Shown one piece after another: positions 1-4,600 of a DNA stretch of 64,000 bases. Both the position numbers and the translations under genes were made by a program. Each line of letters opens with the position of its first letter. Positions within the stretch are counted from its first letter, which is position 1. The notes below the pieces were generated by a model that did no database searches, had not been told where the DNA came from, and worked only from the letters and a program-made list of their open reading frames with translations. This stretch comes from Halococcus agarilyticus (GTDB taxonomy: Archaea; Halobacteriota; Halobacteria; Halobacteriales; Halococcaceae), in assembly GCF_000334895.1 (NCBI RefSeq), contig NZ_BAFM01000012.1, forward strand, positions 1 through 64,000. The letters run 5' to 3'.

Positions 1-61
1 TTAAATATCTTGTTTATTCTGGCGTTGTTAGCTGTGTGGCTCCTATCTATTTGGCTATCTG

Positions 62-892
62 GTGTATCTTCCACTCTTTCAGCCAGGCGCTCTCAACGCA
101 TATCTGGTAGTAGTTCTATTGTTGATAGTAGTCACACCACTAGTAGTATATTTTGACGCTGAACGAATTCCAGAGTTTGTAAAACGTATGGCTCTATCGG
201 GTACAAATAACCCTCCAACTGGGAACGTTGAGGGGGGAAGTACGTCTGTAGCGGAGGATTCTAACTCTGATTTTGACGACGCCTATGACAAACTGATTGA
301 AATCGCTGAGAGAGAATCGGCAAATCTGGCTCACCAGTTGCGGAAAATTAAGTTTGAAGGTACCCAAGACGAGGAAATGACGGCCCTTATGGAGGTGCTA
401 GAAGCAGGCATAGAGTCAGGGTCCTCTATTGATTTGGATGAGTTGCTGGAAGAAATGAGGCACGAACTGGCCAGGCGAGAATATATGGAAGCTACCAACG
501 GAGAAAAAATGGAGATTGTCCGAAGTAACAATACCCAGCTAGTTGTGCAAGCGTTAAACAAAGGGGAGTTGCCAGCGGTTGGAGTAGAATTTGATGTCTA
601 TGCAAATTTTGTTGACGAGCAAGGTGGTAATTACGAAGAATATCGCGGAGTTGTCGCAGAGGCTACATGCACCGGCCATAGAGGTCAAGATGAATATACA
701 GTTGAAATAGATGGGTGGATAAAAGACATTGGTGATGACGCATCAGGAGTAAAGGGCAAACTCATGAGTAGAAATCCGGAGGTGAAAGTTAAGAACGAAA
801 AACGAGAAAAGAATGATTGGCGTAACTTAGAGGAGCTGGAGGATGGGTTTTTAGTGCTGAGGAGAGTAGCGAATCAACAGGAGAATTCGTAA
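62..892 (+). CDS. Membrane-anchored protein of unknown function, accessory region
   Basis: 276 residues from a GTG; in-frame stops lie just upstream, so the gene starts near here. A single hydrophobic segment at residues about 12-31 anchors it to the membrane. A Ser/Asn/Gly-rich linker (about 48-65) and a charged helical stretch (about 65-150) follow, then a beta-rich C-terminal domain (about 155-275). Part of that domain, around the motif EFDVY, can be aligned by eye with the N-terminal domain of the next gene. Its stop overlaps the next start (TAATG), so the two are probably co-translated. DNA is clearly AT-richer than the rest of the window, suggesting acquisition. I do not recognise a named family. 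Confidence 0.75.
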   Translation: MYLPLFQPGALNAYLVVVLLLIVVTPLVVYFDAERIPEFVKRMALSGTNNPPTGNVEGGSTSVAEDSNSDFDDAYDKLIEIAERESANLAHQLRKIKFEGTQDEEMTALMEVLEAGIESGSSIDLDELLEEMRHELARREYMEATNGEKMEIVRSNNTQLVVQALNKGELPAVGVEFDVYANFVDEQGGNYEEYRGVVAEATCTGHRGQDEYTVEIDGWIKDIGDDASGVKGKLMSRNPEVKVKNEKREKNDWRNLEELEDGFLVLRRVANQQENS

Positions 893-1350
893 TGCTGGAA
901 GGACAGGTGGCTCGGGTACTAGATGACCAAACTCTAGTAGCCACTTTTGGAGCGAATGATGGCGTCAAGCGGGAAATGAAATTCCAGGTGTATGAGGATA
1001 CAGGCCCTATAAGACATCCTGAAACTAGAGAGAAGCTATCTGATGGCGAGACGATTGTGAAGGCTAATTTAGATGTTCAAGAAATCAGAGAAAAGGTGAC
1101 AATAATGAAAACCACAACCAACCAGTATACGATGTCATTCAGTGAGATTGCATCAATAGGGTCATCATTAGGGGGGGGAGGATTCACTACCTCCTCACAA
1201 GAGCAGATGGACACAGCCGACGACACGCCCGAGAACATCATGGTGGTTGAAAGGGGCGACCCAATACGGCAGGTGGTAGAAGAAGATAACGACCCCATAG
1301 CTGAAGAAACGGACGAGAAAGAGACACCAGAAAGCGACGAGCAAGAATAA
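892..1350 (+). CDS. Soluble partner protein with small beta-barrel-like domain
   Basis: 152 residues. The ATG shares its A with the preceding TAA stop, indicating translational coupling. Residues 1-70 read like the small beta-barrel seen at the C-terminus of FlgT-like proteins: alternating strands, then GANDGVK and FQVY, then a loop with HPETREKL. That is a pattern judgement, not a database hit. The C-terminal half (about 95-152) is low-complexity, Ser/Gly then strongly acidic, and probably disordered. No signal peptide or membrane segment. Function unknown; presumably it works with the membrane protein encoded upstream. About 150 bases without a gene separate it from the next pair. Confidence 0.7.
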   Translation: MLEGQVARVLDDQTLVATFGANDGVKREMKFQVYEDTGPIRHPETREKLSDGETIVKANLDVQEIREKVTIMKTTTNQYTMSFSEIASIGSSLGGGGFTTSSQEQMDTADDTPENIMVVERGDPIRQVVEEDNDPIAEETDEKETPESDEQE

Positions 1351-1503
1351 AGTAGACCACCACATCTACACACTATCAGGAGTTGGATGGTCACGGTGAG
1401 TTCAAAAAACTGAAAGTGAACTAGATTGGGATCTCTAAGGAGGAGAATGTGAAGTCTTATCCAATGTTCCTTACGGAATATCACCACCTCAACGGATTCA
1501 GTA

Positions 1504-1929
1504 ATGGCTGAGATTGGACTCGTCAGTTGCGTCAAAACCAAGCGTGATGAGTCAGCCACTCCGAGAAATCTCTATACCTCTCCATACTTCGAGAAGATGC
1601 GAGACTACGCGGAGCAGAATCACGACGAGTGGTGGATTCTCTCGGCCAAGCACGGCCTGCTTCACCCTGATGGAGAGCCTATCGAACGATACGACGAGAC
1701 GCTCTCTGGCGCAAGGGTAGCTCGCAAGCGTGAGTGGGCCAAGGAGGTGGCCGAGCAGTTAGACGAGGAAGGACTACTCTCGGGAGATGTGACGCTCGTT
1801 CTCCACGCGGGCAAGGACTACTACGAGGAACTTCTCCCGCTCATTGAGGACAGCGGTGTATCCATTGAGATTCCGACCGAGGGTTTGGGAATCGGAGATA
1901 CGCAGGCTTGGTACAAGGAGCGACTATGA
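1504..1929 (+). CDS. DUF6884 family protein
   Basis: 141 residues. The N-terminal motif LVSCVKTK, the segment LYTSPYFEKMRDYAE and the motif WWILSAKHGLLHPDG followed by YDETL are the hallmarks of the DUF6884 family. The arrangement (Ser/Cys-Lys loop near the N-terminus, then ILSAKHGLL) recalls the YaaA stress family, which is inference. Biochemical function is unknown to me. Its TGA overlaps the ATG of the following GIY-YIG-like gene (ATGA), so the two proteins are probably made in fixed ratio. It lies in the accessory segment next to tRNA-Thr, so a role in DNA defence or mobile-element biology is possible but unproven. Confidence 0.75.
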   Translation: MAEIGLVSCVKTKRDESATPRNLYTSPYFEKMRDYAEQNHDEWWILSAKHGLLHPDGEPIERYDETLSGARVARKREWAKEVAEQLDEEGLLSGDVTLVLHAGKDYYEELLPLIEDSGVSIEIPTEGLGIGDTQAWYKERL

Positions 1930-2576
1930 CGACGAGGGAAGAAATCTGGCAGGAGTGGGCAGACCGCTATATCGATACGGAGAATCCCGTTCCCCTATTC
2001 GAGACTGACGAGAATCTCAACACCGAGTTCAAGTATTACGGGAAGAACGACCGCCGAATCCTGAAACGGAGTGAAGAGATGGAGGCTCTGATTCGAGGCG
2101 AAGGCCACAAGATCATCAACGACTGGCACACCACTGATGACACCTATGACGGCCTGATTTACTTGATGTACTGGTTGGTAGATGGGGAGGTCGTTCCCCT
2201 CTATATCGGGAAGGCGGGGAAGTACGGAAGGAGTGGGGAGGGTCTGAGTGCAAACCTGCGCGGTCTTCAAGGAAGCAGTACCGGAAAGTTCGCCAGATGG
2301 GGAGACGGCCACTACTACCATATCGGTAATCTCAGTGCTATCGTCTTCGACCACGACAAGAACCAGAAGCAGAAGTATAGGAAGTGGGCAGACAGGCTAT
2401 TCTCGAAGGGCAGGCAACTCCGTCAACCTACGTTCTTTTGGGCGAAAGCTTGGGAGCGGGATGACATAGGCCTATTTTACAACTTTGAGGTTCCTCTAGA
2501 ACAACTTGAATACCAGATTATCGGGTTAGCTTCTGACCTCTACCCTGACCTGCTTCTGAATAGCGAAGGTGCTTGA
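1926..2576 (+). CDS. GIY-YIG-like nuclease domain protein
   Basis: 216 residues from the ATG at 1926; an alternative GTG at 1908 is less likely because the ATGA overlap with the DUF6884 gene is standard coupling. Residues about 79-96 read LIYLMYWLVDGEVVPLYIG, a GIY-YIG core with the first Gly replaced by Leu and a perfect YIG. An Arg-rich segment (KYGRSGEGLSANLR) follows, and near the C-terminus LEYQIIGLASDLYPDLLLN supplies the expected Glu and Asn. Key catalytic positions therefore look present. The family cuts DNA in repair, restriction and homing enzymes. The pairing with DUF6884 suggests a two-component DNA-processing module (inference). Confidence 0.65.
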   Translation: MTTREEIWQEWADRYIDTENPVPLFETDENLNTEFKYYGKNDRRILKRSEEMEALIRGEGHKIINDWHTTDDTYDGLIYLMYWLVDGEVVPLYIGKAGKYGRSGEGLSANLRGLQGSSTGKFARWGDGHYYHIGNLSAIVFDHDKNQKQKYRKWADRLFSKGRQLRQPTFFWAKAWERDDIGLFYNFEVPLEQLEYQIIGLASDLYPDLLLNSEGA

Positions 2577-2923
2577 GAGGTTACAAAGCGCCGACTACCT
2601 CTGATAGAAGGAAGCCGCGACCAATTCAATTATATGTAATGATTCGACACGCTATATTCAGAGTGTTATTGGAGATTCAAAAGGTCGATTCATTAACAAA
2701 GTTACCACACCATGGCAACATATTGAATGATGGCGGTGGAGCGACACCTACTGTCAAAATCTGCTTAGGAGGTGTGCCTAACGGCACGAGAACAAAATAC
2801 CCCGCACCACTCCGCGCCGCGACGCTCGACACGAAGCACTCGAAACGGGGGTCTGACCGTGGGAAACAGGCTGATTATGCCGATTTCAGCGGGTCAGGCA
2901 AGTGTTGCCACTCATCGGGGAAT
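2577..2923. other. Intergenic region without a supported gene
   Basis: About 350 bases between the GIY-YIG-like gene and the convergent DUF7845-type gene. A 126-codon open frame crosses it but shows no domain, has poor composition and runs antisense into the next gene. A short inverted repeat (GTGCC, 4-base loop, GGCAC) lies near 2775. No TATA box linked to a start was seen. Confidence 0.5.
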
Positions 2924-4453
2924 TCAGCCGAGGGCGGGAACTCGGTAGTTTGACCGGCCCTCACTGTCCTGCCAGCGAGCGCGTCCGGTCTTGAACCGTC
3001 GTGGGTCTCGACCGGACGTGAGCCACGCCCGGAACCCGTCGCGGAGCGCATTGGTCACGTCGCCGGGAACACGACCGAACCGGAGCTGAAGACGCGCATC
3101 AGACGGGTCCTCAACCTCGACACCGTAACGGCGCTTCCACTCCGCGAACGCACTTCCCTCGCTCTCGCCGTCCGTGTCCTGGCGGAGCGCGTCGAGCGTG
3201 TCCGAAAGTGCCGACCGAACGACGTCCCCGAGATATTCGGACGCGAACCTTACCGTGCCGTCCCGAAGTGAGAGTAGGCCGTCGAGACGGTCGAGGACGC
3301 GGTACACCGTCCGCTTCGACCACCCTGTTTCGTCCCCGACCGCATTCACGGGTTTCCCACCGTCCGCGACGGCTTCGAGTACGTCGCGGTCGGATGGGTT
3401 GAGGTCCGGGTCCACCGGCAGGGAACACACGAGTGCGTTCTGCTCGCGGCGAATCTCCGGCGTCGGGTCGTCTATCAGGGTGAGCGGACGGGCGGACTCT
3501 CGTACCTGAAAGTAGGCGTCCGCGACGTACACCGACGGGTCCGCCCGCGTCGGCAGGCCAGCCCATGACAGCAGGTTCACCAGCGTTTCGTCCAACTCCC
3601 GCCGGAGTGCGTCGCGGTCCGACCATTTGACCGACCCGCCATTCAGGTTCGACTGTAACGATACCCCGACCTTCGGGTGATACAGCGGGTCCGAAGGGTC
3701 CGAACGCGGATGCTCCGGATGGTAGTGCTTGAGCTTCTTTCCCAACTCGTGGCCCGGCACGAGTACCGCCGCGCCGTCGCTGTCTATCTTCACCCGGTGG
3801 TGGTAGCCCTCGACGCAGTTCCGGTCGTCTTCCCGAAGCTCGCGGAACTTCCCCTCGCCCGCGACGTGCTCGAATATTCGTTGCATCGGCGAGTTCATCC
3901 CGACGACCTTCCCCGACTTCGACCGCCGGACACGGGCGTACCGCTCGAAGGCGAAGATGTTGGAATGACGGTGAGGTTCCTCGAAGTACGCCGAGTTCAC
4001 GTCGAGCGCGCCCGCCGCCTTCCGGAGTAGCACCGGGTAGGCGTCGAGCAACAGGTTCGACCCGTCACAACGGACATTCACGCCGACTATCTTCGGCGTC
4101 GAAGGGTTCGGTGCGTCCCCTTTGCTTTCCATGTTCGGCCAGCGCGGCGCGACGTGATAGCTCGCCTTCCGCTCACCCACGTCGTCGCGCGCTTCGAGTC
4201 GGATACGGAACTCTCGGACCGTTTCAAGACAAAAATCCGGGTCGTCGCGCGGCTTCAATCCCGACCGCTGGTAGGAGAGCGTCGCGTCGAACACCTCGCC
4301 CTCGTGCCGGACCGTCGCGGACGCGGACCCGCCGCCGTCCTTCACCCGCCGGTCGAGCGCGAAGTACGGCGACAACTCGTGTTCGGTGAAAATCAGGTTT
4401 CCGCCGAACTCGTGTGGAGCCGGGTCGAGGACCGGCGCGCTCACGCCGGACAC
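2924..4453 (-). CDS. DUF7845-type protein with C-terminal winged helix
   Basis: Up to 509 residues from a GTG at 4453; a second GTG three codons in is an alternative. The long N-terminal two thirds has no motif I can assign biochemically. Residues about 350-420 form a helix-turn-helix (NPSDRDVLEAVADG, then VGDETGWSKRTVYRVLDRL), implying DNA binding. The C-terminal 70 residues are basic and aromatic. The protein resembles the haloarchaeal DUF7845 group, which I know from integrated and plasmid elements. It sits directly against the 3' end of tRNA-Thr, as integrated-element genes often do. An inverted repeat at 4466-4494 and a TATA-like AT run at 4513-4520 lie upstream. Confidence 0.7.
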   Translation of the reverse strand: MSGVSAPVLDPAPHEFGGNLIFTEHELSPYFALDRRVKDGGGSASATVRHEGEVFDATLSYQRSGLKPRDDPDFCLETVREFRIRLEARDDVGERKASYHVAPRWPNMESKGDAPNPSTPKIVGVNVRCDGSNLLLDAYPVLLRKAAGALDVNSAYFEEPHRHSNIFAFERYARVRRSKSGKVVGMNSPMQRIFEHVAGEGKFRELREDDRNCVEGYHHRVKIDSDGAAVLVPGHELGKKLKHYHPEHPRSDPSDPLYHPKVGVSLQSNLNGGSVKWSDRDALRRELDETLVNLLSWAGLPTRADPSVYVADAYFQVRESARPLTLIDDPTPEIRREQNALVCSLPVDPDLNPSDRDVLEAVADGGKPVNAVGDETGWSKRTVYRVLDRLDGLLSLRDGTVRFASEYLGDVVRSALSDTLDALRQDTDGESEGSAFAEWKRRYGVEVEDPSDARLQLRFGRVPGDVTNALRDGFRAWLTSGRDPRRFKTGRARWQDSEGRSNYRVPALG

Positions 4454-4465
4454 CCCTGTTCACGA

Positions 4466-4494
4466 GGGAGTGACCGTCGAGCGTCGCCACTCCC
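4466..4494 (-). promoter_or_regulatory. Inverted repeat upstream of the DUF7845-type gene
   Basis: Arms GGGAGTG and CACTCCC are separated by 15 bases, with the whole repeat 13-41 bases before the GTG start at 4453. The spacing fits a dimer-binding operator; because the gene product carries a winged helix, autoregulation is possible. It could also be a 5' leader hairpin. Confidence 0.35.
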
Positions 4495-4528
4495 CCTTGT
4501 CGTGGTAAGATGTGAATAATTTGTTATG

Positions 4529-4600
4529 AGCCTAGGCCGGGATTTGAACCCGGGGTCTCGTCCTTACCAAGGACGCGCTTTACCGCTAAGCTACCCAGGC
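4529..4600 (-). tRNA. tRNA-Thr (anticodon GGT)
   Basis: Read on the minus strand, the acceptor arm GCCTGGG pairs with CCTAGGC (one G-U). The anticodon stem CGTCC/GGACG encloses the loop TTGGTAA, giving anticodon GGT. The T arm contains GGTTCAAATCC. The discriminator base is U73, the usual identity base of archaeal tRNA-Thr. No intron and no encoded CCA. Length is 72 bases. The 3' end points into the AT-richer accessory segment (1-4528), the classic orientation for an element integrated at a tRNA 3' end. Confidence 0.95.

Follow-up and report, generated by a model that had tools for sequence, protein, structure and literature searches.

The canonical GIY-YIG superfamily takes in UvrC, YhbQ, and homing and restriction nucleases. 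PDC-M57 is a PADLOC candidate system, that is, a prediction, and in the literature we found no paper mentioning or testing it. DUF6884 is described by Pfam's authors as related to YaaA and as bearing CxxxK and LSAxxG motifs, and its Bacillus member YfjM was bound to abasic and ribo lesions, with a base flip modelled (PMC11701544). DpdC converts a deazaguanine in DNA and has been placed in DUF6884 (PMC11888242) as well as in PF03883 (PMC12839542). CMoRE (PD-T4-3) is a type IV restriction enzyme of the GIY-YIG type, a single protein whose sensor reads 5hmC and is without known homologue (PMC12923530).

Here we describe a pair of overlapping genes from a 3.48-Mb haloarchaeal genome, located in the first 64 kb of its contig C12 (the window, meaning the whole stretch of 64,000 nucleotides that was analysed). 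We propose tentatively, with somewhat less than even confidence, that the two genes form a nuclease unit that moves horizontally and has a defence-type role, in which one protein acts as a sensor and the other as a cutter.

The DUF6884 gene and its overlapping nuclease gene

The initial annotation had recognised two open reading frames overlapping by ATGA, the first for a DUF6884 protein and the second for a GIY-YIG-like one, and these identifications hold (Table 1). The first protein, P0001, matches PF21818 over its full length (3.3e-41; 141 bits against a Pfam gathering cut-off of 30) and carries both the CxxxK and the LSAxxG motif, whose conservation was scored over 40 nuclease- or C5-linked DUF6884 relatives. 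In the PADLOC search it matched PDC-M57A (2.2e-33), and its match to the DpdC profile was insignificant (E 0.01). An AlphaFold model built on three sequences was poor (pLDDT 60) and had no significant fold match in the PDB; matches of P0001 to repeat-protein structures were rejected as artefacts of its helical region, and solved structures searched by sequence yielded nothing meaningful for either protein. The overlap, of a stop/start type that recurs at other GIY-linked DUF6884 loci, probably couples translation of the two genes. Immediately upstream, positions 1437-1511 (+) hold a strong Shine-Dalgarno-like sequence, AAGGAGGAG, and then a 20-codon open reading frame (GTG at 1449, end at 1509-1511) that overlaps the DUF6884 start and is possibly a leader peptide for coupling; it occupies the place held by a PD-(D/E)xK gene at other loci.

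Table 1. Features of the gene pair, in window positions.
Feature	Position	Strand	Basis
Unit of transfer, homologous to Halobellus L002 and to G239 (L065), with little homology outside	1504-2576	+	DNA comparison
P0001, DUF6884 protein, YaaA/DpdC-like, PADLOC PDC-M57A	1504-1929	+	141 aa; PF21818 and PDC-M57A matches
DUF6884 CxxxK motif, C9...K13	1528-1542	+	Motif from PMC11701544; invariant in 40 rows
DUF6884 LSAxxG motif, L46-S-A-K-H-G51	1639-1656	+	PMC11701544; L46 in 39/40, S47 and A48 in 40/40
ATGA start/stop overlap of P0001 and P0002	1926-1929	+	Sequence
P0002, divergent GIY-YIG nuclease (predicted), 'P0002 family'	1926-2576	+	216 aa, stop 2574-2576; profile links and invariant residues
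GIY-equivalent motif, G76-L-I-Y79	2151-2162	+	G76 and Y79 invariant in 31
YIG-equivalent motif, Y93-I-G95-K96 (YIGK)	2202-2213	+	Y93, G95 and K96 invariant in 31
Predicted catalytic Arg/His, R124-W-G-D-G...H132	2295-2321	+	Invariant in 31; aligned to canonical R..H of Deinococcus P0005
Predicted metal-binding Glu195 and conserved Asn212 (LEYQIIGLA...LLN)	2508-2561	+	Both invariant in 31

Searches with the second protein, P0002, gave no meaningful match in Pfam, NCBIfam, PADLOC, or PHROGs; in Pfam nothing, PF01541 included, appeared up to an E-value of 10, and none was found among INPHARED phages. Relatives of P0002 are present in 57 of 391 Halobacteria-class genomes. Ten positions are invariant in 31 relatives, namely G76, Y79, Y93, G95, K96, R124, W125, H132, E195 (codon 2508-2510), and N212 (codon 2559-2561), and the Tyr/Tyr/Arg/His/Glu/Asn active-site set is kept among them. 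The YIG motif and the C-terminal Glu and Asn that had been singled out from the sequence are thus real features. The Arg-rich segment listed beside them as typical of GIY-YIG enzymes does not mark the catalytic arginine: this stretch is not conserved among the 31 relatives and was rejected as a catalytic site, the invariant arginine being R124 (in FARWG, codon 2295-2297), about 30 residues past YIG.

About half of the P0002 relatives are tandem proteins of ~460 aa, in which the C-terminal half is P0002-like and the N-terminal half has canonical GIY-YIG spacing (YLYLIYL...PVYVGES..ISSRI.QH...ELEAKL). These tandem proteins give a weak Pfam GIY-YIG match (0.014-0.016, below the cut-off) and bear the PGAP name 'GIY-YIG nuclease family protein'; the P0002 profile (A1) aligns with that of the canonical tandem half (A2) at 99.4% in hhalign (E 2.7e-21). 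On a Deinococcus plasmid both halves occur as two separate overlapping genes, and the canonical one, P0005 (PGAP 'GIY-YIG'), matches the P0002 profile along its length (E 1.7e-12), its Arg and His falling on R124 and H132, with about 20 residues inserted after YIG in P0002. Direct comparison of the P0002 profile with haloarchaeal YhbQ/UvrC, or with the two other GIY types introduced below (GIYc and GIYdouble), was not significant. Because the tandem relatives and P0005 link the profiles, P0002 is assigned to GIY-YIG; judged by homology, and fold apart, it is a divergent nuclease of this superfamily, and its subfamily has no entry in Pfam, NCBIfam, PADLOC, or PHROGs. The AlphaFold model of P0002, made with five sequences, was also poor, with a pLDDT of 36. 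That P0002 might be a decayed pseudo-nuclease was rejected on the invariant active site and a dN/dS of ~0.1.

Co-transfer of the pair and its accessory setting

When compared in 60-nt blocks with Halobellus salinus (L002), the DNA of the pair is 66-91% identical inside 1504-2576 and 23-40% outside; against L002 and G239 (L065), identity runs at ~65-90% between the start of DUF6884 and the end of the nuclease gene and is near random beyond. By this comparison the two genes move together as a unit, and both are, by their substitution rates, under purifying selection (dN 0.11-0.17; dS near or above 1, often saturated). Of roughly 60 loci of the P0002 family, nine have a DUF6884 gene within 1.2 kb, with ~0.01 expected by a rough arithmetic of 60 x 62 x ~4 kb / (391 genomes x 3.7 Mb). 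A chance neighbourhood was rejected on this co-occurrence count and on the pair-wide DNA homology.

The pair had also been described as lying near a tRNA gene in accessory DNA of different composition, and both points were borne out. G+C rises from 45% in positions 1-1500 to 52-55% across the pair and 65-73% past 4.2 kb, and a tRNA-Thr gene lies at 4528-4600, separated from the pair by ~2 kb that include a DUF7845 gene. Positions 1-4528 are accessory, because the alignment of most genus mates ends at the 3' end of tRNA-Thr and the DNA after it differs between two genus mates. When the genome was scanned for a further copy of the tRNA 3' end, as an att site, the tRNA itself was the sole match, and no known defence gene adjoins the pair within the window.

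The intervening gene (2924-4453, -), which encodes a DUF7845 protein (phrog_3288, 'transcriptional regulator'), adjoins tRNA-Thr; in the genus mate G255 a DUF7845 gene adjoins the same tRNA too (G255:C7:43087-44725), which suggests an integrated-element family. On the other side of the pair, two overlapping low-G+C genes at 62-1350 (+) encode proteins of 276 aa, with an N-terminal membrane-like segment, and 152 aa; neither has a significant family match, and a homologue of the 276-aa protein is absent from 30 near relatives.

Exchange of nuclease partners among DUF6884 loci

Of 391 haloarchaeal genomes, 225 contain DUF6884, which also occurs in phages and bacterial plasmids. A survey of all P0001-type DUF6884 loci in these genomes (n=62) placed a GIY-YIG-type gene at most 1.2 kb away in 34, with partners divided among the P0002 family (9), a type that we term GIYc (15), which is PDC-M57B (3e-72), and a type termed GIYdouble (10), with two GIY-YIG domains (PF01541, 2.7e-6). 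The nuclease gene lies downstream on the same strand in 26 loci, where an ATGA-type overlap is frequent, and is convergent in most others. In the DUF6884 tree, the window protein groups with those of L123 (GIYc), L126 (GIYdouble), and L002 and L003 (P0002 family). Its identity to the L126 protein is 83%, and DUF6884 proteins of ~80% identity carry all three nuclease types. Partner types change at least five times on this tree, where individual branch support is 80-88. The DNA of L002, L126, and L123 is alike across the upstream gene and DUF6884 and then drops to ~30-40% right after the DUF6884 stop. Since homology ends exactly at this stop codon, the nuclease cassette has been swapped.

This upstream gene, often present at related loci, has a PD-(D/E)xK signature (D72...E85-x-K87) and stands before DUF6884 whichever of the three nuclease types is the partner; in L038 and L084 it abuts a tandem P0002-type gene without DUF6884, and it is absent from the window locus and from the whole of that genome. 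HNH nucleases adjoin DUF6884 too (for example in Burkholderia, L148, and L157), and in the cyanobacterium Tolypothrix a GIYdouble gene, 37% identical to its haloarchaeal counterpart, has a NACHT NTPase beside it and DUF6884 at a distance of 8 bp. To our knowledge, no earlier description exists of the exchange of cassettes, of the optional third gene of PD-(D/E)xK-like type, or of the occurrence in a cyanobacterium. In eight loci DUF6884 adjoins, mostly divergently, the gene of an unannotated 420-aa protein that has a PD-(D/E)xK-like 'VIEAKG' (EAKG) motif (L129, L131, L136, L145, L146, L148, L149, and L167).

DpdA/TGT-like genes adjoin DUF6884 in five loci, on separate tree branches. In L160, L162, L163, L169, and L170, two DUF6884 genes lie next to each other, one of them diverged and with weak DpdC similarity, flanked by a gene for a 310-aa unknown protein and a TGT/DpdA-like gene plus a GHKL-like ATPase; these loci are possibly an archaeal deazaguanine-DNA system distinct from Dpd.

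The initial annotation had named two checks, recurrence of the pair in other genomes, which the count given above bears out, and linkage with phage-defence genes, which is seen in some genomes. Hachiman HamAB and genes for type I restriction occur among the neighbours of 26 such pairs, as do a C5 methylase and an AspBHI-like enzyme, and in L002 a methyl-directed restriction enzyme (3e-36) lies just upstream of a PD-(D/E)xK-like/DUF6884/nuclease triple. PADLOC returned 193 families from 87 neighbour genes as compared with five from 43 chromosomal ORFs of the window, a contrast that is suggestive rather than a calibrated enrichment because the families are redundant and overlapping, and the control small. 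IMG/VR relatives of P0002 on prophage-like contigs (L172 and L173) sit directly after a phage integrase. Upstream of the integrase are a NACHT-like NTPase in L173 and two unknown genes in L172, an arrangement like a variable cargo hot spot.

DUF6884 is missing from the neighbourhood of most P0002-family genes, and in a 240-aa subfamily (L072-L080, L087-L090, and related loci) 17 of the 18 loci have the same chromosomal neighbours, with a peptidase-like gene close by. This shared setting and the solitary genes argue against a purely defensive role and imply that the nuclease is able to act on its own or in a housekeeping role; the 240-aa branch may have been domesticated.

Proposed mechanism, alternatives, and known systems

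Taken with the precedents of YaaA/YfjM, DpdC, and CMoRE, a sensor with an exchangeable cutter is the best reading of the pair, and we infer base recognition, recruitment, cleavage, and defence along the following lines. The DUF6884 protein would scan DNA until a flipped non-canonical base, modified or damaged, entered its CxxxK/LSAxxG pocket; it would recruit or license the nuclease partner, and the GIY-YIG enzyme would cut beside the mark by means of Tyr79, Tyr93, Arg124, His132, and a metal bound by Glu195. Viral or plasmid DNA entering the cell would be destroyed and normal host DNA spared; this would resemble type IV (modification-dependent) restriction, except that two separate, exchangeable genes would encode the sensor and the cutter. 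A wider proposal, which we consider possible though on the unlikely side, is that DUF6884 is the shared base-flipping sensor of a modular immune family of archaea and bacteria, to which unrelated nucleases are coupled by cassette exchange: the three GIY-YIG families and perhaps HNH and PD-(D/E)xK types too.

Of the alternatives, DNA repair fares best, albeit as an unlikely one. The DUF6884 protein would recognise an abasic site, a ribonucleotide, or a damaged base, whether in DNA of the cell itself or of a plasmid, with the GIY-YIG enzyme incising beside it as part of a two-protein analogue of UvrC, itself a canonical GIY-YIG protein. The conserved chromosomal setting of the 240-aa subfamily and the position of the split Deinococcus pair near recA would suit such a role, as would the lesion binding and modelled base flip of YfjM (PMC11701544); nevertheless, the patchy, plasmid-borne, tRNA-adjacent spread, the frequent replacement of nucleases, and the defence neighbours fit a conflict system better.

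It is improbable that DUF6884 alters a base of host DNA in the manner of DpdC and that the nuclease cuts unmarked DNA, as in restriction-modification. Such self-marking would accord with the placement of DpdC in DUF6884 or PF03883 (PMC11888242, PMC12839542) and with the five haloarchaeal loci in which two DUF6884 genes adjoin a DpdA/TGT-like gene, but the window pair has no adjoining TGT/DpdA or methyltransferase, P0001 does not significantly match DpdC, and the TGT-linked DUF6884s stand on long branches apart from the nuclease-linked ones. More doubtful still is a toxin-antitoxin pair, in which a self-harming nuclease would be kept in check by a DUF6884 protein synthesised before it. The small size and coupling of the genes, their place on mobile DNA, their antitoxin-like order, and the ATGA overlap would agree with this, yet nuclease relatives of 67-79% identity stand alone (L064 and L066), so an adjacent restraining gene is not needed; moreover, the DUF6884 pocket is conserved and enzyme-like, and the same DUF6884 pairs with dissimilar nucleases, unlike specific antitoxins. 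Least probable, and very much so, is that the pair aids the spread of an integrated element (that with the DUF7845 gene at tRNA-Thr) or its exclusion of competitors, for example by acting as a homing-type nuclease, since the accessory segment beside a tRNA and the integrase-linked IMG/VR relatives are outweighed by the occurrence of the pair on plasmids and chromosomes with unrelated flanks and by the lack of any intron, intein, or fixed insertion site seen.

The sensor-and-cutter pair is best placed by comparison with the systems from which we set out. It is a variant of the PDC-M57 candidate, with which it shares the PDC-M57A match of P0001 and a GIY-YIG-like gene following or facing DUF6884 in the same position, and from which it differs in that its partner belongs to another GIY-YIG family: P0002 has no PDC-M57B match in PADLOC, and its profile gave an hhalign E of 0.45 (A1 against A5). 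The view that this was a coupled unit assignable to no described system thus stands as to the coupling and falls as to the assignment, and the initial interpretation as a whole is partly supported. PDC-M57 in turn would be one case of a broader modular group, as these comparisons suggest. With the DUF6884/YaaA/DpdC family (PF21818, PF03883) the pair shares a full-length PF21818 match and both motifs; unlike DpdC, P0001 is standalone and nuclease-coupled, without DpdA/DpdB, and no TGT or ParB-like gene, as in the Dpd 7-deazaguanine system, occurs among the ORFs beside the pair. P0002 retains the residue set of the GIY-YIG superfamily but is longer by ~20 residues between YIG and Arg, carries a large insertion ahead of the Glu helix and an additional N-terminal part, and scores below the Pfam cut-off; the analysis thereby names a GIY-YIG subfamily new to the libraries, with a predicted active site. 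A GIY-YIG nuclease joined to a sensing module would work as CMoRE does, except that the sensor here would be a separate DUF6884 protein and P0002 is without a PADLOC match. Coupling to interchangeable nucleases gives the widespread DUF6884 a concrete candidate function, that of a base sensor for DNA cleavage. If the wider proposal of a shared sensor is true, the pair would belong to a class of restriction systems with a constant recognition subunit and a swapped cutter, the reverse of the specificity swap of type I enzymes.
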